This document shows, in pieces, positions 1-13,004 of a stretch of 13,004 nt of DNA. A program made the position numbers and the translations under genes. How positions within the stretch are numbered: position 1 is the first letter of the stretch; every line of letters begins with the position of its first letter. Below the pieces are notes generated by a model, which did no database searches, was not told the origin of the DNA, and saw only the letters and a program-made list of their open reading frames with translations. Source of the stretch: Gammaproteobacteria bacterium (GTDB lineage: Bacteria; Pseudomonadota; Gammaproteobacteria; J044); assembly GCA_026995955.1 (NCBI GenBank), contig JALWNJ010000286.1:1-13004 (forward strand), read 5' to 3'.

Positions 1-141
1 GAGCAGTGCCGCGAAGGCCGGCTCCGCCCCGCCCTGCAGCACCATCGCCAGCACCGCGAACAGCAGCCAGTGCCAGTAGCGCCGGGTGTAGCCCAGCAGG
101 CGCCGGTAGACCTGCAAGCCCTGCCCTGCGGGCGCCGTCAT
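1..141 (-). CDS. msbA: Lipid A/LPS export ABC transporter MsbA, N-terminal fragment (runs off the left edge)
   Basis: Only the first 47 codons are present. The peptide begins MTAPAGQGLQVYRRLLGYTR and runs into a hydrophobic stretch (about residues 24-47, YWHWLLFAVLAMVLQGGAEP), which looks like the amphipathic elbow and first transmembrane helix of MsbA. MsbA is the inner-membrane half-transporter that flips lipid A-core to the periplasmic leaflet using ATP. The nucleotide-binding domain lies outside the window, so the call rests on this short N-terminus plus context: msbA commonly follows comEC-exbB-exbD in Gammaproteobacteria. The ATG at 141 overlaps the exbD stop as ATGA, and a GAGGG lies just upstream of the start, so it is probably translationally coupled to exbD. 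Another type-1 ABC exporter half is possible but less likely. Confidence 0.8.
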   Translation of the reverse strand, partial: MTAPAGQGLQVYRRLLGYTRRYWHWLLFAVLAMVLQGGAEPAFAALL

Positions 142-563
142 TGGCCCTCGGACAGCGAAGTGGCAATGGACAGGCGCGTGATGCCGAGTTTTGCCGCCGC
201 GTCCATGGCCGTGACCACGGCCTGGTGCGGCGTCTTGGCATCGGCCTGCAGGATCACCGGCTGCGCGGCGTCCTCGCCCACGGCCTCGCGCAGGGCGGCG
301 ATCAGGGTTTCGCCACGGGTGTTGACCACCTCGCGGCCGTTGATGAAGTAGTGGCCGTCGGCATCGATGACCAGCCGTACCGGCTGCTTCTCCTGCGGCT
401 CGGCCCGGGTCGATGCCTCGGGCAGGTCCACCTTGAGCTCGGACTGGCGGTTGAAGGTGGTGGTCACCATGAAGAACAGCAGCAGGATGAACACCACATC
501 GATCAGCGGTGTGAGATCGATGCGCGGCTCGTCACGCCGCTTGTCGTCGCCACGGAAGTTCAT
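138..563 (-). CDS. exbD: ExbD/TolR-family biopolymer transport protein
   Basis: This 141-residue protein has the standard ExbD layout. A short cytoplasmic N-terminus contains the family signature IDLTPLIDVVFILLLFFMV (about residues 15-33), followed by one transmembrane helix (about 19-38) and a periplasmic domain (about 45-141). Asp22 in the LIDVVF motif matches the proton-pathway aspartate known from ExbD and TolR. With ExbB it forms a proton-motive-force-driven motor in the inner membrane. No TonB or TolA gene is in the window, so the energised partner is unknown. Its ATG overlaps the exbB stop (ATGA), no clear ribosome-binding site precedes it, and its stop overlaps the msbA start, so translation probably depends on coupling. 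This comEC-linked copy is a conserved neighbour of lipid A export genes, though its role there is not settled as far as I know. Confidence 0.93.
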   Translation of the reverse strand: MNFRGDDKRRDEPRIDLTPLIDVVFILLLFFMVTTTFNRQSELKVDLPEASTRAEPQEKQPVRLVIDADGHYFINGREVVNTRGETLIAALREAVGEDAAQPVILQADAKTPHQAVVTAMDAAAKLGITRLSIATSLSEGQ

Positions 564-4922: not shown

Positions 4923-5207
4923 TCAATCCCTGCTGGCGTCCGGTTTCTGTCCGTGTGCCGCCCGCCAGCGCGGCGAGAGGAGCTGGAACAGCAGACGCAC
5001 GCTGGCGCGCACCAGCCCGGTGAGGAACAGCATCAGCAGGAAGGCAAGCGCCATGCCGAGCAGCAGCAGCCCCAGCAGGCCCCACAGGGTTTCCACCTTG
5101 TCGTGCAGCAGCCAGGGCGTGAGGAGGGCGAGCAGCAGCCAGGTCAGCAGCAGGGCCAGGCTGGTGGCTCCCTCGAAGGCCCGCTGGAGCTGCTGGACGT
5201 CCTTCAT
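4923..5207 (-). CDS. Small two-helix membrane protein encoded after nasA, 94 residues
   Basis: This short gene begins MKDVQQLQRAFEGATS and has two predicted transmembrane helices (about 17-35 and 42-64). A short loop (HDKVETLWG) joins them, and the C-terminus is basic (LVRASVRLLFQLLSPRWRAA, about 65-84). I know no family for it. The start is the ATG at 5207, which overlaps the nasA stop as ATGA, a strong sign of translational coupling. A longer in-frame reading up to 5378 would lie inside nasA and is not credible. By the positive-inside rule the basic C-terminus should be cytoplasmic. As the last gene of the nitrate-reductase operon it may be a membrane accessory or anchor, but that is inference from position only. 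Confidence 0.75.
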   Translation of the reverse strand: MKDVQQLQRAFEGATSLALLLTWLLLALLTPWLLHDKVETLWGLLGLLLLGMALAFLLMLFLTGLVRASVRLLFQLLSPRWRAAHGQKPDASRD

Positions 5208-7876
5208 GCCTCGCTCTGTTCCGCCAGTGTCTGCTCGATGATGCTGCGCAGTTCCGGCACGCAGGAGCCGCAGTTGGTGCCGGCGCGCAGGCGCTCGCCG
5301 ATGGCCTCGGGTGTGGTCAGGCCCTGCTCGAGGATGGCCTTGCGAATGGTGTTCAGCCCGACGCCGAAACAGGAGCAAACGATGCGGCCGGCGTCTTCCT
5401 GCCCCGCCCCCGGCTTGCCCGTGAGCAGGCTGCGTCGGGTGGCCTCGTCGATCTCGTCCTGCTCGAAGATGGCGATGAGCCAGTCGCGTGGCGGCAGTTC
5501 GTGCGACGGACCGATGAAGATGCAGCTCTCCAGTCGTCCTTCCTCCAGCCGCGCGGCGCGGTAGGTACGCCTTCCGGCATCGTAGAACTCGATCCAGTTC
5601 ACCCCGCAGGATTCGGTGCAGAGGACTTCGCGTGCGCAGCGTGCCCAGTCCTTTACCGGCTCCGAGCCGGCGATCTCGTAGCGCCAGATGCCCTTGCCGC
5701 GTGACTTGGCCCAGTAGGTGGCATGGCTCAGGTCGACCTCGCGCCGGCTCAGCAGGAAGCCATACCAGCCGGCCTGCCAGGGCTCGACACGAACCGGGTT
5801 GTGCTTGAACTCGGGCTGGCCGGACACCGGGTCGGTGGCGACCGGGAACAGCCGGTTGACATAACTGCCGTGCGAGAACTGGTCGTTCCAGTGCATGGGC
5901 ACGAATACCGAGCCGGGTTGCTGGTTGTCGCTGAGGCGGGCACGGACGATGATGTGGCCGCGGGCTCCGGTGACGCGGACCAGCATGCCTTCCTCGATGC
6001 CTGCTGCTCTGGCATCGTCCGGATGCAGCTCGGCATAGGGCTCGACGACATGACCGGACAGACGCGGCGACTTGCCGGTGCGGGTCATGGTGTGCCAGTG
6101 GTCGCGCACGCGGCCGGTGTTGAGGACCAGCGGGTATTCCTCGCTGGTGGCCCGTGCCGGCCCGCGCGGCGTGATGGGCAGCATGCGGGCCTTGCCGCTG
6201 TCGGACCAGAACTGCCCGTCACCGAACAGGCGTGGGGTGCCTTCGGGCCTTTCCGCCGGCAGGGGCCACTGTTTCGGCGTCCAGTCTCGGTATTGCACGT
6301 CGCTGATTTCGGCCAGGGCGCCAAGGTCGAAATCCCGCTCCACTTCGGGCCGGAAGGCCGACAGCCGGGCATGCTCGCGAAAGACATCGGCTTCGCTCTG
6401 CCAGTCGAAGCCCTGCTCGAACCCCATGCGTTGGGCCACCTGGGCGATGATCCACCAGTCGGGGCGCGCCTCGCCCGGGGCCGCCATGAAGGCGCGCTGG
6501 CGCGAGATGCGCCGCTCCGAGTTGGTGACCATGCCGTCCTTCTCGCCCCAGGTCTGTGCCGCGAAGACGACATCGGCGAGCCGTGTGGTATCGGTGGGAT
6601 GGGTGCAGTCCGAGACCACCAGGAATTCGCACTCGGCCAGCGCCTGACGCACGGTGTCGGCATCCGGCAGGCTGACGGCGGGATTGGTGGCCATGATCCA
6701 CAGTGCCTTGATGCGCCCTTCACGCACGGCCTGGAACATCTCGGCGGCCTTGAGGCCGGGACGCTCGGCGATGCGTGGCGACTGCCAGAAGTCCTGCACC
6801 AGACGGCGATGCTCGGGGTTGTCGAGCTCGAGATGGGCCGCGAGCTGGTTGGCAAGCCCCCCTACCTCGCGCCCGCCCATGGCGTTGGGCTGGCCGGTGA
6901 AGGAGAAAGGGCCCATGCCGGGCCGGCCGATGCGACCGGTATAGAGATGGCAGTTGATCAGCGCATTGTCCTTGTCTGTGCCGCTGGTGGACTGGTTCAT
7001 GCCCTGAGAAAAGACGCTCACCACCCGCTCGGTGCGGCACCACAGATCGTAGAATTCGGCGACCCGTTCCGGTTCGAGGCCGCAGATGCGGGCCACGGTG
7101 TCGATGTTCGGGCTGCTCTCGCGGGCCGCGGCCAGTGCCTCCTCGCTGCCCTCGACGAACTGCAGGTACAGCGGATTCCCCTCGCCGCGTTCGGCGAGCT
7201 GCACCAGCAGCCCGTTCCACAGCCAGCCGTCGGTGCCGGGCCGGATCGGCAGATGCAGGTCGGCGATGTCGGCGCTGGCGGTACGCCGCGGGTCGATCAG
7301 TACCACCCGCAGATCGGGGTGCTCGCGCCGTGCCTTCACCAGGCGCTGGTAGAGCACCGGATGGCACCAGGCGGCATTGCTGCCGGCCAGTACCACCAGC
7401 TTGGCCCGTTCCAGGTCTTCGTAGCTGCAGGGCACGGTGTCGGTGCCGAAGGCCCGCTTGTAGGCGGCGACGGCCGAGGACATGCACAGCCGCGAGTTGG
7501 TGTCGATGTTGGCGGAACCGATCCAGCCCTTCATCAGCTTGTTGGCGGCGTAGTAATCCTCGGTGAGGAGCTGTCCCGAGACATAGAAGGCCACCGAGTC
7601 CGGGCCATGCCGCTCGATGGTCTCGCGAAGCTTCGTGGCGACCCGATCCAGCGCCTCGTCCCATCCGGCCGGCTGTCCGTCGATCAGGGGCTGGAACAGG
7701 CGCCCCTGAACGCCGACGGTTTCGGCCAGGGCGCTGCCCTTGGAACACAGCCGCCCCAGGTTGGCGGGGTGCTCGGGATCGGGGGCCACCTCGATGCCGT
7801 CGCCGGTTCGTACCAGCACACCGCAGCCGACCCCGCAGTAGGGACAGGTCGTTCGGATGGTCTGTTCATTCGTCAT
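5204..7876 (-). CDS. nasA: Assimilatory-type nitrate reductase catalytic subunit NasA (molybdenum bis-MGD enzyme)
   Basis: The 890-residue protein reduces nitrate to nitrite at a Mo-bis-MGD centre. The N-terminal [4Fe-4S] ligands are Cys11, Cys14, Cys18 and Cys44 (CPYCGVGC then LCSKG). The motif NSRLCMSSAVAAYK places the probable molybdenum-ligand Cys131. The molybdopterin oxidoreductase body covers about 55-480, with TGQPNAMGGREVGG near 327-340. The dinucleotide-binding domain covers about 580-700, including NTGRVRDHWHTMTRTG (586-601). A BFD-like [2Fe-2S] domain closes the protein with Cys834, Cys836, Cys869 and Cys872, as in Klebsiella-type NasA. There is no twin-arginine or other signal peptide, so it is cytoplasmic. 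The ATG at 7876 was chosen because the Cys motif follows at residue 11; a GAGGA lies 11 bases upstream. It overlaps viaA by 11 bases and the next gene by 4. Formate dehydrogenase was considered, but the BFD tail and Cys rather than selenocysteine favour NasA. Confidence 0.93.
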   Translation of the reverse strand: MTNEQTIRTTCPYCGVGCGVLVRTGDGIEVAPDPEHPANLGRLCSKGSALAETVGVQGRLFQPLIDGQPAGWDEALDRVATKLRETIERHGPDSVAFYVSGQLLTEDYYAANKLMKGWIGSANIDTNSRLCMSSAVAAYKRAFGTDTVPCSYEDLERAKLVVLAGSNAAWCHPVLYQRLVKARREHPDLRVVLIDPRRTASADIADLHLPIRPGTDGWLWNGLLVQLAERGEGNPLYLQFVEGSEEALAAARESSPNIDTVARICGLEPERVAEFYDLWCRTERVVSVFSQGMNQSTSGTDKDNALINCHLYTGRIGRPGMGPFSFTGQPNAMGGREVGGLANQLAAHLELDNPEHRRLVQDFWQSPRIAERPGLKAAEMFQAVREGRIKALWIMATNPAVSLPDADTVRQALAECEFLVVSDCTHPTDTTRLADVVFAAQTWGEKDGMVTNSERRISRQRAFMAAPGEARPDWWIIAQVAQRMGFEQGFDWQSEADVFREHARLSAFRPEVERDFDLGALAEISDVQYRDWTPKQWPLPAERPEGTPRLFGDGQFWSDSGKARMLPITPRGPARATSEEYPLVLNTGRVRDHWHTMTRTGKSPRLSGHVVEPYAELHPDDARAAGIEEGMLVRVTGARGHIIVRARLSDNQQPGSVFVPMHWNDQFSHGSYVNRLFPVATDPVSGQPEFKHNPVRVEPWQAGWYGFLLSRREVDLSHATYWAKSRGKGIWRYEIAGSEPVKDWARCAREVLCTESCGVNWIEFYDAGRRTYRAARLEEGRLESCIFIGPSHELPPRDWLIAIFEQDEIDEATRRSLLTGKPGAGQEDAGRIVCSCFGVGLNTIRKAILEQGLTTPEAIGERLRAGTNCGSCVPELRSIIEQTLAEQSEA

Positions 7877-9542
7877 CGCTTTCGTTTTCCTCGTGCGCGG
7901 CCTCAAGGCGGGTACGCCATTGCCGAAGGTCGCGGAAATGGTGAACGGCATCGCACAGGGGCGCAAGTGCGCGATCCGACCAGTTGCCCAGTTGCACGCC
8001 GATGACGCGCAGCCCCTGCTCTTTTCGGGCCTGTCTCAGCCGTGCCGAGAGGTCCGCATCGGGCGGGAAACGCCCGTCGGTGATCAGCAGCACATCGGCC
8101 CTGGCCCAGGCCGGATCCTGCAGGCGCTCCAGTACATCTTCCATGGCACTGCGCAGGTCGGTGCCACCCTGCTCGTCGGCGCGCAGGAAACGCAACAGGG
8201 CACGATAGCCCGTGGGGTCGAAACGCAGCGGCAGCCACTGCAACTCGCCGGGGCCCGAGAAGCGGGCCAGCAGGCAGGGACGGTCTTCGGCATTGGCGAG
8301 CCTCAGGGCCTCCAGCGCCATGGCCCGGGCAAGCTGGCCGGCGGTGCCCGCCATGCTGGCCGAGCTGTCGAGGCAAACCAGGACCGGGCCGTGTCCGGGG
8401 GCCGCCGGAACCGGTTTCGGCGGCGGGCTCACGGCCACTTCGCGCCATTGTGGTTCGTGTTCGGACTGCACGCCGCGCACGGCATAGACGGCGAGCGCGC
8501 GCTCGGCACGGCGGGCATGCCACAGCATGCGCAGCCGAGGATGGCCCAGCAGCTGGGCCTCGCCGGGCAGCATGCGGCCGATGTCGTCGCTGCGCGCCAG
8601 GCCCTCGTGTGACATGGGCACGGACGCCGGGCGTTCAACCGGTACCAGACCGGGCGCAGTCTCGGTGCCACTGTGCGGGTGGACGGTCGCAGGATCCGGG
8701 CCATTGCCCTTCAGCCCCCGCGCCCTGCCCAGTTCGGCAACGATGCGGGCCAGTTCGGGCGCTGCCCGGAGCAGACGACGGTAGCGCAGGATCAGTCGCA
8801 GATCCGCGCGTTGCAGTCCTCGGCCATGACCCAGATCCCAGCCCTGCCCGGGTCGGGCGGACAACTGGGCCGACATCTCCGCGATGCCCCGCCATTGTTC
8901 GGCAAATTCGGCCCAGCGTGTGCTCAGCGGGTCTTCGCTGCCGGTGATCGCGTCTTCCGTTCCGGGTTCGGCATCTGGGGGCGCTTCCGCCGCGGCGACC
9001 GTCGGGCCGGATGTGCCGCCGGAGGGGCCGGACGGTGCAACATCGCTGCTCCCGGTGTCCGGGACGGGCTGTGGCTGGGCTCGCGGGGTTTCTCCTGCAG
9101 CCTCCTGTCCCGATGCTTCGGCAGGCTTTTCATCCTCCGGCGCCAGCTCGCTGGTGCGTTCACGGCGACGCAGGGTCTGCTGCAGGACATCGTCGAAATG
9201 GCCTTCCAGACCGGCCTCGCGCCAGTCCTCCAGTGTCTCGATGGCGGTGCACACATCCTGCAGGATGTGGTCCACCAGATCGGGCGCGTTGCGGCACAAC
9301 GGCAGCAGGTCGAGGCCCTCGAGGCGACGCAGCAGGGGGCGTGCCACGGCGGGTTCGGGCCATCCGATGCGCGCGCAATCCGGTAGCTGGCCGCCAAGCA
9401 GGGCCGCCCGCCAGCCGAGGATGCCTTTCACTCGTAGTTCCAGGCTGCCGTGGGGCAGCGTGACGATGCGTCGATAGAGCGCCTCGGGCAGGCCGTCGAG
9501 AAAATCGAACAGGTTGTCCAGGCGGGCGGCTTGAGCGCGCAT
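7866..9542 (-). CDS. viaA: VWA-domain protein ViaA, partner of the RavA ATPase
   Basis: The 558-residue protein aligns by eye with E. coli ViaA (483 residues). WDLGHGRGLQRADLRLILRY (235-254) and APELARIVAELGRARG (261-276) match its central helical region, and RSDDIGRMLPGEAQLLG (317-333) matches its QSDDILRLLPPELATLG. The C-terminal von Willebrand A domain (about 386-545) has an intact metal-ion site: DSSAS at 392-396, Thr461 in GGTDL, and Asp489 in ITDG. ViaA binds RavA and stimulates its ATPase; in E. coli the pair associates with respiratory Fe-S enzymes such as complex I and fumarate reductase. An acidic, Pro/Ala/Gly-rich linker of about 75 residues (130-205) looks disordered and accounts for the extra length. 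The ATG at 9542 shares its A with the ravA stop (TGATG). The gene overlaps nasA by 11 bases, which suggests matched production. Confidence 0.88.
   Translation of the reverse strand: MRAQAARLDNLFDFLDGLPEALYRRIVTLPHGSLELRVKGILGWRAALLGGQLPDCARIGWPEPAVARPLLRRLEGLDLLPLCRNAPDLVDHILQDVCTAIETLEDWREAGLEGHFDDVLQQTLRRRERTSELAPEDEKPAEASGQEAAGETPRAQPQPVPDTGSSDVAPSGPSGGTSGPTVAAAEAPPDAEPGTEDAITGSEDPLSTRWAEFAEQWRGIAEMSAQLSARPGQGWDLGHGRGLQRADLRLILRYRRLLRAAPELARIVAELGRARGLKGNGPDPATVHPHSGTETAPGLVPVERPASVPMSHEGLARSDDIGRMLPGEAQLLGHPRLRMLWHARRAERALAVYAVRGVQSEHEPQWREVAVSPPPKPVPAAPGHGPVLVCLDSSASMAGTAGQLARAMALEALRLANAEDRPCLLARFSGPGELQWLPLRFDPTGYRALLRFLRADEQGGTDLRSAMEDVLERLQDPAWARADVLLITDGRFPPDADLSARLRQARKEQGLRVIGVQLGNWSDRALAPLCDAVHHFRDLRQWRTRLEAAHEENESDDE
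7888..7892 (-). promoter_or_regulatory. Candidate ribosome-binding site of nasA (GAGGA)
   Basis: GAGGA on the minus strand lies 11 bases before the nasA ATG, inside the last codons of viaA. The spacing is slightly long, but it supports the start at 7876. Confidence 0.45.
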
Positions 9543-11128
9543 CAGGCCGGCTCGTGCTCCTTGCGCGGAAGTCGGGCAAAGCCGTCGTGAATGTGCTCCA
9601 AATCGGCGATCAGCGTGTCGATCCGGGCCAGATCGGACTGCAGCCGGTGCGTGATGGCCTGCAACCATTCGGCATCGTGCCAGAGCGGGTCCCCTTGCTC
9701 GCGCAATTGTTTGAGCTGGGCTTCGATGCGCCCTTTCTGGCGGCCGATTTCCTGCTGCAGCTGGCGAATCTCTGCCTGCCGGCTTTCTATGTGGCGTTCG
9801 CTCCAGAGCCAGGGTTCGGTCAGGGGGGTATTGTCGCGAAATGCCTGCAGGCGATTGTCGGGGTCGGCCAGGTAGTCGTCCAGGCCGACCCAGTGGCCAT
9901 CGATGTGCGTCTGCCGGAAGTGGTCGTCGAAAAAGTCGTGCTGCAGCTCATCGCGGGTGTACCCGGCACCGGCGTTGGTGCGATCCGCCACGCCGGGCGG
10001 TGCCAGATACAGGGGCTCGCCGTCTCGGTCGCCGCTGACAAGCGTCCTGGCCTGGCGGGTCTGGCGGCCCTGGGCGTCGAGGTAAAGGGGATGGCCGTCT
10101 TCATCGGTCACCGGGCGGCTGCGTGCCCGGTCTTCCTCGAGGGTTTCGTGCCAGGCCGCAACGAGGCGTTGCAGGCGGCGGATGCCGCTGCCGGCGCTTT
10201 CCCCTGCCCCTGCGTCCGTGTCCATCCCCAGCAGTCGCTCCAGAAGGGCGCGTACCCGGGGTTGCTGCTCCGGCGTCTGCCACAGGCAATGCTCGAGCAG
10301 GCGACATTGCCAGGGCTGGACTTCCGTGGCGCCGTCGGTCCATGCCGCCACGCGCAACAGTCCCAGCGCCTGGCGCCAGCGGCGGTCGGAAACCCGGATG
10401 TCTTCCTGCAGCAGCGCCTCGCGCAGGTCTTCGAGCAGCAGCAGGGTGTCCTCCGTCAGGGGCAGGTCCGCGGCATTCTGCCGGATGGCGGACAGCAGGC
10501 CAGGATCGATACGGTCGGATGGGTCGATGTCCGTGCCGGATTGGGTCTCCAGCGCCAGCAGCCGGCGGAAGCCTGCCTGGCTGACCGGGCTGACCTGATG
10601 ACGCAGCAGGAAGCGGTCGTACAGCGCCTCCAGCTCTTCCTCGTCCGGCAACTCGTTGCTGGCCGCGATGACACAGACCAGCGGCGTATGGATGCGCTGG
10701 GTGCCGTTGTCGAAGGCCCGTTCGTTGAGCAGGGTGAGCAGCGCGTTGAGGATGGCGCTGTTGGCCTTGAAGATCTCGTCGATGAATGCGACCGTGGCCT
10801 GAGGCAGGTACCCATCGGTCAGCCGTTCGTAGCGGTCTGCCTCCAGCGCGCGGATGGAGAGTGGCCCGAACAGTTCTTCCGGGACCGAAAAGCGGGTGAG
10901 CAGCCGTTCGAAATAATGCCCACCCGCAAGGATCGATTGCAGACGGCGGGCCAGCTCGCTCTTGGCGGTACCCGGCGGGCCGAGCAACAGCAGGTGCTCG
11001 CCGGCCAGCGCCGCGAGGAGCGACAGCCGCACGGCCTCGGTACGCTCGATCAGCCCCTGGCCCAGGGCATCCAGCAGACGCCGCAGGCGGGCTCGCAGCG
11101 CTTCGTCGGCCACGAGGTGGCGGCTCAC
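9542..11128 (-). CDS. ravA: MoxR-family AAA+ ATPase RavA
   Basis: The 528-residue protein follows E. coli RavA (498 residues) closely through its N-terminal half: GQGLIERTEAVRLSLLAALAGE, Walker A GPPGTAKS (50-57), LTRFSVPEELFGPLSI (77-92), Walker B VAFIDEI (113-119), sensor 1 AASNE (155-159), arginine-finger region LYDRFLLR (169-176), and sensor 2 SDRRW (247-251). Residues after about 300 diverge: two DGxPLYL repeats (344-350 and 369-375), then a coiled-coil-like stretch (about 445-480). RavA forms hexamers that remodel client complexes with ViaA. The start is a GTG at 11128, 22 bases after the preceding gene, giving VSRHLVADEALRAR, which resembles the E. coli start; the ribosome-binding site is weak. 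An upstream in-frame ATG at 11185 would overlap the preceding gene by 35 bases and add an unrelated N-terminus. The stop overlaps viaA by one base. Confidence 0.9.
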   Translation of the reverse strand: MSRHLVADEALRARLRRLLDALGQGLIERTEAVRLSLLAALAGEHLLLLGPPGTAKSELARRLQSILAGGHYFERLLTRFSVPEELFGPLSIRALEADRYERLTDGYLPQATVAFIDEIFKANSAILNALLTLLNERAFDNGTQRIHTPLVCVIAASNELPDEEELEALYDRFLLRHQVSPVSQAGFRRLLALETQSGTDIDPSDRIDPGLLSAIRQNAADLPLTEDTLLLLEDLREALLQEDIRVSDRRWRQALGLLRVAAWTDGATEVQPWQCRLLEHCLWQTPEQQPRVRALLERLLGMDTDAGAGESAGSGIRRLQRLVAAWHETLEEDRARSRPVTDEDGHPLYLDAQGRQTRQARTLVSGDRDGEPLYLAPPGVADRTNAGAGYTRDELQHDFFDDHFRQTHIDGHWVGLDDYLADPDNRLQAFRDNTPLTEPWLWSERHIESRQAEIRQLQQEIGRQKGRIEAQLKQLREQGDPLWHDAEWLQAITHRLQSDLARIDTLIADLEHIHDGFARLPRKEHEPA

Positions 11129-11150
11129 TGCTCTGCCCCGGTCGCCATCG

Positions 11151-13004
11151 TCAGGGGTTCTTCCACACCAGGATGTCCCGCACATGGGCCATCATGTCGC
11201 GCAGGGAGGTCTCCCGGATGGTCTGCAGCAACTCGTCGACACGGAACGGATGATGCCGTTCGTGGACGACGCCCACCTGCTCGCGATCGGCAAGCCCGAT
11301 CTCGCGGGCATGCTCGATGAAGCCGCGGTTCTTCCAGAAGAAGGCCCCGGGCATGGTGGTCGGAATGACGAGGGCATAGAACAGGATGCGTCCGGTATAG
11401 GCCATTACCAGCATGGAGGCGGCAAAGACGGTGGCCAGGGTCACCCCGGCAGGTGTGCTGAGGCCGGTGAAGTAGAGTGCTGCGGCAAGCAGCAGATTGA
11501 ACACCAGTAGTGCGTTGCGCAGCATCCAGGTCTTGCCGTAACACGTGGTCTGTTCGTAGTAGGCAGCTTCACCCTCGCCGCCCCGGCGCTTCATGTCGCG
11601 GGCATGGAACAGAAGGCCGATGCCTTCCGCGGCGAGCCCGGCGATGGCGACGGGGGCCAGGATGCGGATCAGGGCATCCGGAGCGGGCACGAAGGGCAAG
11701 GCCAGCAGCCCGATCAGCGTGCTGCCCAGCGAGGCCATGGTGCCGTAGAAGCTGCTGGCGGTTTGCCAGTGATCCCAGAAGGGACGCGCCGGGATGCGGT
11801 ACAGGCGGTACATGTACCAGGAGCCGATGGCGAGCCCCGCGAGGGCCAGTGCGGCAAAGGCGTTCGCCAGCAGGCGCATGGGCGTCCAGTCGAACAGGTT
11901 GAAGAAGGCAAAGCCGGCAAGTCCCATGAAGAACAGGGATACGCCGGCGATTTCCCGGCTCACCGGCGACCAGCGCAGGTTGTTGAACCCGCGGTAGAAC
12001 CGGTGGGGCTTGCCCAGATGCATGTTGAGCTTGAACAGGCCGAATCCCAGCAGGGCAACCAGGATCCAGGGCAGCGGCTTGGCGACCGGCGCGGCGGGCA
12101 ACTGATCGAGCCCGGGCACAGCGGCCCAGAGGCCCAGCATCAGCAGCAGGAAGGCGCCCATCACGGCCTGTGCCGAGAGCGTGAAGACGACATGGGCGTT
12201 CTCGTGGGAGCGCAGCAGCCGACCCCAGTTCCAGGCACGCTCGTGGCCGTGCTTTTCGTCCACTTCCGGCCGATAGCGACCGCCTGCCCGGTCGTCGCGA
12301 TGGTATTTGATGGGCATGCTGTCGGTGCGCTTCATCTCCCGCGGCAGAGTCTTCTTCTGCTGGAAGCGGATGTTGGGATGCGTAATCGAAGGATCGGGGA
12401 AGCCGGGTATGTCGAGTTTGGCCTGATCACGGTTCTCGGGCGTATTCTCGATGACGCCGAACTCCAGCGCCCCGCCCAGGCAGGCGGCGACGCAGGCCGG
12501 CTTGAGGCCGGCCTCGAGCCGGTCCACACACATGTTGCACTTGCTGACCTGACCCTTGACGGGGTCGAGCTGGGGCGCATTGTAGGGGCAGACCCAGGTG
12601 CAGTAACCGCAACCGAAGCAGATGTCCGGGTCCTGCAGGACCGCGCCGTATTCGGCGAACTTGGTATAGGCGCGCGTGGGACAGCCCTTGAGGCAGACCG
12701 GATCCTCGCAGTGGTTGCAGGCCATGGAGATGTTGAGCCGGGTGAAGGCCGGCCAGGTGCCGCCCTCCACATAGCCCACGCTGCGGAACGCAATGTGCGG
12801 CGGATTGTTGTTCTTCTCGCTGCAGGCGGCCTCGCAGGCGTGGCAGCCGATGCAATTGTCGGCCGTGAAGTGGAAGCCATGCTGCTTGTAGCGGTTGGGA
12901 TTGTCCGACTTTACTTCCTCGCCGTTGATGCGCAGCGGTTGGCCGTACAGCGAACTGGTCTTGTCGACCAGCTCGATGAAGCGTCCCCACTGGCTGCGTT
13001 CCTT
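11151..13004 (-). CDS. Four-cluster [4Fe-4S] protein fused to a DmsC-type quinol-oxidising membrane anchor (5' end outside the window)
   Basis: The 617 visible residues stay open to the right edge without an N-terminal Met, so the start is missing. Residues are numbered from the edge. Sixteen cysteines form four cluster motifs as in DmsB/NarH-type subunits: Cys51/54/57/61, 96/99/104/108, 129/132/135/139 and 156/159/171/175. A charged linker (about 176-268) joins this to a DmsC-like domain with eight predicted helices (about 270-550) carrying LGKPHRFYRGFNNLRWSPVS. A 60-residue polar tail follows. DmsC-type anchors oxidise quinol, and the Fe-S part wires electrons to a molybdoenzyme, here most likely NasA. 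Basic residues before helix 1, in the loops after helices 2, 4 and 6, and after helix 8 put both ends in the cytoplasm, consistent with NasA lacking an export signal. An internal GTG at 12779 is not the start because it would drop the first cluster. It heads the visible part of the operon, 22 bases before ravA. Confidence 0.88.
   Translation of the reverse strand, partial: KERSQWGRFIELVDKTSSLYGQPLRINGEEVKSDNPNRYKQHGFHFTADNCIGCHACEAACSEKNNNPPHIAFRSVGYVEGGTWPAFTRLNISMACNHCEDPVCLKGCPTRAYTKFAEYGAVLQDPDICFGCGYCTWVCPYNAPQLDPVKGQVSKCNMCVDRLEAGLKPACVAACLGGALEFGVIENTPENRDQAKLDIPGFPDPSITHPNIRFQQKKTLPREMKRTDSMPIKYHRDDRAGGRYRPEVDEKHGHERAWNWGRLLRSHENAHVVFTLSAQAVMGAFLLLMLGLWAAVPGLDQLPAAPVAKPLPWILVALLGFGLFKLNMHLGKPHRFYRGFNNLRWSPVSREIAGVSLFFMGLAGFAFFNLFDWTPMRLLANAFAALALAGLAIGSWYMYRLYRIPARPFWDHWQTASSFYGTMASLGSTLIGLLALPFVPAPDALIRILAPVAIAGLAAEGIGLLFHARDMKRRGGEGEAAYYEQTTCYGKTWMLRNALLVFNLLLAAALYFTGLSTPAGVTLATVFAASMLVMAYTGRILFYALVIPTTMPGAFFWKNRGFIEHAREIGLADREQVGVVHERHHPFRVDELLQTIRETSLRDMMAHVRDILVWKNP

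Follow-up and report, generated by a model that had tools for sequence, protein, structure and literature searches.

Which enzyme does a RavA-ViaA-like pair serve when it is encoded within a nitrate reductase operon? The question is raised by the window, a stretch of 13,004 bases that is one entire contig of a 2.15 Mb, 86%-complete genome, and in which genes for a MoxR ATPase and a VWA protein stand between those for an FeS/DmsC fusion and a NasA-like molybdoenzyme. To our knowledge, the E. coli RavA-ViaA genes are not beside any client gene. The E. coli pair forms its own operon (available text of PMC3893208), whereas the window pair is part of a nitrate reductase operon. RavA-ViaA of E. coli has been linked to complex I, fumarate reductase and the nap genes; the VWA domain of ViaA contacts FrdA, and RavA-ViaA is synthetic lethal with nap-ccm genes (excerpts of PMC3893208 and PMC10585395), but its target is described as disputed in the portion available of PMC10585395. 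In the literature covered, which was mostly without subscription journals, no paper was recognised as describing a linkage of RavA-ViaA to a nitrate reductase operon, and none combined RavA with 'nitrate assimilation'; in their available parts, PMC11278965 has RavA-ViaA in its references only and PMC9973319 has E. coli aminoglycosides as its subject.

Gene content of the window

Read from the contig end, the minus strand carries FeS/DmsC, ravA-like, viaA-like and nasA-like genes followed by a hydrophobic ORF (Table 1). The coordinates bear out the arrangement in the preliminary description: the four genes run in one direction, with a 22-base gap between FeS/DmsC and the ravA-like gene, an overlap of 1 base (TGATG) between the ravA-like and viaA-like genes, and an overlap of 11 bases between the viaA-like and nasA-like genes. 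The nasA-like start was set at the ATG at 7876, directly before a CPYCGVGC motif, and the mechanical ORF start at 7966 was set aside. As the window is the whole contig, the gene neighbourhood 5' of FeS/DmsC is out of view; the gene runs into the contig end and is short by about 19 codons compared with its relative, the match starting at query residue 20.

Table 1. Minus-strand genes of the window, in order from the contig end
Feature	Coordinates	Strand	Remarks
FeS/DmsC fusion	11151..13004	-	5' end cut by contig end; Fer4_11 + DmsC (Pfam)
ravA-like MoxR AAA+ ATPase	9542..11128	-	GTG start, 528 aa; bpMoxR/AAA_5/AAA_lid_8 (Pfam)
viaA-like VWA protein	7866..9542	-	ATG start, 558 aa; VWA_2 (Pfam)
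nasA-like molybdoenzyme	5204..7876	-	ATG start, 890 aa; Molybdopterin + Molydop_binding + Fer2_BFD (Pfam)
94-aa hydrophobic ORF, possible fifth gene	4923..5207	-	start overlaps nasA stop by 4 bases

The FeS/DmsC fusion joins a four-cluster ferredoxin-type domain to a DmsC-type membrane anchor (Fer4_11, 6e-23; DmsC, 2e-18, both by Pfam). The hydrophobic ORF had no Pfam or NCBIfam match; small proteins of about 102-151 aa, which form one cluster of 11, occur downstream of FeS/DmsC in relatives.

Among solved structures, E. coli RavA matches the ATPase best (E 5e-64, residues 10-292), and Walker A, Walker B and AAA_lid_8 of the MoxR AAA+ core are all present (Pfam). The ATPase residues are intact, G50, K56, S57, D117 and E118 being invariant in an alignment of 33 rows. 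The protein does not reach the NCBIfam RavA equivalog cut-off (257.1 bits versus 681), and for this reason we call it RavA-like rather than a RavA equivalog; the match stops at residue 302, and the sequence likeness to E. coli RavA concerns the AAA part only. RavA continues beyond this part as a triple-helical bundle with an inserted beta-rich LARA domain; a predicted model of the window protein (pLDDT 86) continues with a helix at 314-335, a mixed beta-rich part at 337-440 and helices at 444-478 and 486-518, and aligns to 3nbx over 7..508 when taken as a whole.

ViaA is the best NCBIfam match of the VWA protein (E 8e-42, residues 229-536), again below the equivalog cut-off (144 bits versus 500). 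The metal-site residues of its VWA domain are intact, with D392, S394, S396 and D489 of the MIDAS invariant in 27 rows, and the gene adjoins that of RavA; the predicted structure had a mean pLDDT of 67 and was set aside. The NasA-like enzyme has an N-terminal 4Fe-4S motif, molybdopterin domains, an LCM motif and a C-terminal BFD [2Fe-2S] domain. The LCM motif, which separates nitrate reductases from formate dehydrogenases, is found in 10/10 NasA rows (9 distinct). Scores were under the NCBIfam equivalog cut-offs for NasC (449 versus 1100), NasA (396 versus 1000) and Fdh-alpha (479 versus 666); we use the name NasA-like because the NasC and NasA cut-offs were missed.

Linkage of RavA to the FeS/DmsC gene

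The tie between RavA and FeS/DmsC is more than chance and is conserved, but it holds in one direction only. Across 369 genomes drawn evenly from the class, FeS/DmsC was found in 59 (E<=1e-60) and RavA in 18 (E<=1e-30, with the best few candidates scored per genome). Nine RavA genes reach E<=1e-130, a cut chosen after inspection of the list, where the values jump from 1e-131 to about 1e-87; all nine share the strand of FeS/DmsC and lie downstream of it at no more than 0.5 kb. The genomes concerned (G000, G011, G065, G067, G138, G158, G268, G301 and G345) belong to six families. Gaps between the two genes range from 6 to 498 bases: they are 6-26 bases in six loci and 294 in G065, and the two widest, in G138 (449) and G345 (498), hold a single 123-aa gene. 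The 123-aa protein that separates FeS/DmsC from RavA in L189 and L191 looks TusE/DsrC-like, and its cluster holds 14 proteins encoded downstream of FeS/DmsC in the class. None of the remaining nine RavA genomes is in the FeS/DmsC list (0/9); eight have weaker partial matches, and the ninth, G273, has a fragment at a contig start that was left out of the counts.

A ViaA profile search of genome contigs, from which 80 of 115 relatives were kept, gave 80 loci, among which the order FeS/DmsC then RavA recurs in L037, L040, L041, L043 and L063, with L043 and L040 pointing to Methylococcaceae or Porticoccaceae. L035 and L053 show it too, but duplicate G065 and G011 and were kept out of the trees; the contigs of L036, L038, L042, L047 and L055 stop before the order can be read. 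The idea that a RavA-ViaA-like pair is genetically tied to a nitrate reductase operon thus holds in six families of the class draw and five further contigs. The viaA gene follows ravA in 7/9 loci with RavA. In G158 and G268 it has left the operon and lies at an unlinked place in the genome, and genes that by eye resemble cmoA and cmoB come after RavA instead; we count this retention of ViaA in favour of a bond between RavA-ViaA and the operon. In genus g158 the unlinked ViaA is followed in both genomes by a similar 188-aa protein (L225:8849-10588 and L226:9003-10850).

The reverse does not hold: 49/59 FeS/DmsC genomes have no RavA beside FeS/DmsC, and one more (G238) is cut by a contig end. 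In these 50 genomes no RavA was found anywhere at E<=1e-30 among the best few candidates per genome (a second FeS/DmsC copy in G089 stood outside the locus counts). RavA genes of Thiotrichaceae (L039, L042 and L044) are as similar to the window RavA as linked genes are (444-471 BLAST bits versus 397-494), and yet those of L039 and L044 are not beside FeS/DmsC. Two genomes from the same genus (G001) and the same family (G002) as the window had no FeS/DmsC, close RavA or ViaA. Across 398 genomes of a phylum draw, six had FeS/DmsC (E<=1e-150) and four had RavA (E<=1e-80 with G011 as query), both together only in the window; of the five FeS/DmsC loci besides the window, the two inspected, both from outside the class, read nirB-nirD-NarB-type-FeS/DmsC without RavA. 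Scanning genome and viral contigs with single sequences gave no matches.

The enzyme of the operon and the history of RavA

In 56/59 loci of the class draw a molybdoenzyme gene lies just upstream of FeS/DmsC. The three exceptions are the window and G187, where contigs end, and G017, where it is absent from 19.5 kb. nirB is near FeS/DmsC in 50/59 loci and nirD in 51/59. Among the best 120 of 2709 relatives, source names for the protein include nitrate reductase, assimilatory nitrate reductase and NarB, as well as YjgC-like and selenocysteine-type dehydrogenase. It falls under every NCBIfam cut-off (Fdh-alpha, 583 versus 666; NasC, 517 versus 1100), and we label it NarB-type on account of the source names, nirBD and the LCM motif. 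In relatives, 16 cysteines are conserved in FeS/DmsC and eight in the NarB-type protein. On the simplest view FeS/DmsC, as the membrane subunit, would pass electrons, probably drawn from quinol, to the NarB-type enzyme.

NasA, in contrast, is near FeS/DmsC in only 2/9 loci with RavA and 8/50 others (one of the eight a fragment), which argues that the presence of NasA does not depend on that of RavA, or the reverse. This bears directly on the preliminary description, which took the pair for a dedicated maturation machine of the downstream NasA, set between the electron-transfer and catalytic genes. That position is seen in the window; in relatives the NarB-type gene precedes FeS/DmsC and RavA follows it. 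The expected linkage of ravA-viaA to both nasA and FeS/DmsC accordingly divides, FeS/DmsC keeping its place beside RavA and nasA not. The general idea that RavA-ViaA gains a genetic client survives, without the particular client proposed and without the word 'dedicated'. NasA as sole client was rejected as the main reading, and we regard a dedicated NasA maturase as improbable, even though viaA and nasA overlap in the window, the G011 cluster also has NasA, and the 86%-complete genome of the window yielded no NarB-type gene (best match, NasA itself at 37%). Most simply, NasA would be an additional enzyme that occasionally joins the cluster, and the look of the window would come from where the contig ends; the NarB-type gene would presumably lie beyond that end. 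nirB was not found in the same assembly either, although an empty result of this search, run without a positive control, proves nothing; given both absences, this genome may pair NasA with FeS/DmsC.

The FeS/DmsC tree (60 rows, G238 scored as lacking RavA) requires five changes of the RavA label, four of them forced by starred branches. In the RavA tree (74 rows, without L067, L070 and L071) the linked genes form one side of one branch, with 15 rows, one of them unconfirmed (L055 was labelled as linked though its contig starts inside RavA); its SH-aLRT of 90 is below the starred level and comes with the warning that long branches (window, G138/G345) meet there. Both trees are compatible with RavA having been gained once and then lost, whether or not transfers also occurred.

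The NarJ/TorD family (PF02613) is unrelated to RavA and has no ATPase, but its role, the assembly of a cytoplasmic Mo nitrate reductase, is the one that the pair would fill. In 50 of the 59 FeS/DmsC genomes (nine were left out), it was not found in 8/9 genomes with RavA but also not in 32/41 without. RavA thus does not simply replace NarJ, and this candidate explanation was rejected for want of a correlation between RavA presence and NarJ-family absence. A RavA-specific mark in the client was likewise rejected: one column differed in FeS/DmsC (14 versus 45 rows, G238 left out) and none in the NarB-type protein (11 versus 47 rows).

Role of the pair and its relatives

We consider it slightly better than even (about 0.55) that, in one family branch, a RavA-ViaA-like machine is tied to an assimilatory nitrate reductase operon (NarB-type plus FeS/DmsC) as an accessory remodeller. 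By analogy with known pairs, ViaA would dock on the complex of FeS/DmsC and nitrate reductase from the cytoplasm through the metal site of its VWA domain, recognising there either FeS/DmsC or the molybdoenzyme. RavA would provide the force, spending ATP to remodel the complex and so helping with cofactor loading, with docking or with reactivation. Since the pair is missing from most genomes that carry this operon, its function would be accessory (efficiency, repair or a condition-specific need) and not an obligatory step; the same scarcity weakens the notion of a dedicated maturation machine. The NasA of the window would then be either a further client or uninvolved. Cofactor loading, docking aid, repair and restraint may each be what the pair does, all being compatible with the sequences. 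More tentatively, a RavA-branch MoxR/VWA machine driven by ATP might help to assemble or repair a quinol-linked assimilatory nitrate reductase (NarB-type plus FeS/DmsC) in bacteria mostly without NarJ-type chaperones, modules of this type having been put to new use now with respiratory-type enzymes, now in defence-like islands.

An unlikely alternative is a regulator that acts as a brake on the nitrate reductase complex instead of assembling it. E. coli fumarate reductase is inhibited through direct binding of ViaA to FrdA, according to the available part of PMC10585395, which also notes that other work disputes this modulation; an optional regulator would fit the patchy presence of RavA (9/59 loci) better than a required maturase, and the sequences do not tell the two roles apart. 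A little less probable still is a portable module, of general use at the membrane or under stress, that is parked at the end of the operon, the linkage being an inherited or transferred neighbourhood and not a sign of function. Related pairs do occupy unlike places, defence-like islands among them, the equally similar Thiotrichaceae pairs are not nitrate-linked, at least four to five RavA gains or losses are needed on the FeS/DmsC tree, and ViaA is gone from the operon in one genus; against this, such closeness in 9/9 cases over six families would be hard to keep without selection. Very improbable is an anti-phage or conflict system located here by chance: sister pairs adjoin HEPN, dynamin, helicase and PLD genes, and bpMoxR, the Pfam match of the AAA core, takes its name from a MoxR-VWA ternary conflict system (excerpt of PMC7159879), but the window pair has no PADLOC match, its operon no effector-like gene (Pfam), and no third conflict-type protein was seen in the window.

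Set against known systems, the accessory remodeller has partial parallels. The gene neighbourhood is like that of NorQ/NorD, likewise a MoxR ATPase with a VWA protein. These serve membrane-bound nitric oxide reductase (PMC13036017 and PMC9976466, in excerpt), and NorQ twists the NorD linker to insert metal (PMC13036017, same excerpt). NorQD is described as essential, whereas most genomes with the window-type operon lack the pair, and the best match of the window ATPase is RavA, not NorQ, which belongs to the CGN subfamily of MoxR; the patchiness of RavA among FeS/DmsC genomes argues against a strict need for it in the activity of the linked enzyme. CoxD is also a MoxR protein, needed for metal-site assembly of the Mo enzyme CO dehydrogenase (available parts of PMC3893208 and PMC11278965), but belongs to the APE2220 subfamily and serves another Mo enzyme family. 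In Paracoccus, NarJ matures NasC, and the excerpt of PMC6618116 leaves room for other chaperones; the pair could be the chaperone missing from assimilatory nitrate reductases. A branch in which RavA follows the membrane subunit of one enzyme, wherever the upstream side is visible, makes the client of RavA-ViaA directly testable by genetics and biochemistry.

Sister RavA-ViaA pairs have neighbours of their own. A gene of 177-178 aa follows the pair in 7/7 loci examined (L064, L065, L069, L076, L085, L232 and L233, from Oceanospirillaceae, Shewanella and two more genomes); in L064 it encodes a RiboL-PSP-HEPN protein and a dynamin-like gene is next, so that a RavA-ViaA-HEPN defence system is possible in these pairs. 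In Thiomargarita (L039:2183-10429) the pair lies near an MkoA-like helicase and a DrmC-like PLD protein. In L063:8996-18022 ViaA is followed by a chemotaxis-type set (receptor, CheW-, CheR-, CheA- and CheB-like by eye), and genes of similar lengths lie downstream of ViaA in L035. Two tandem RavA-ViaA pairs occupy one proteobacterial contig (L049:3108-9608).
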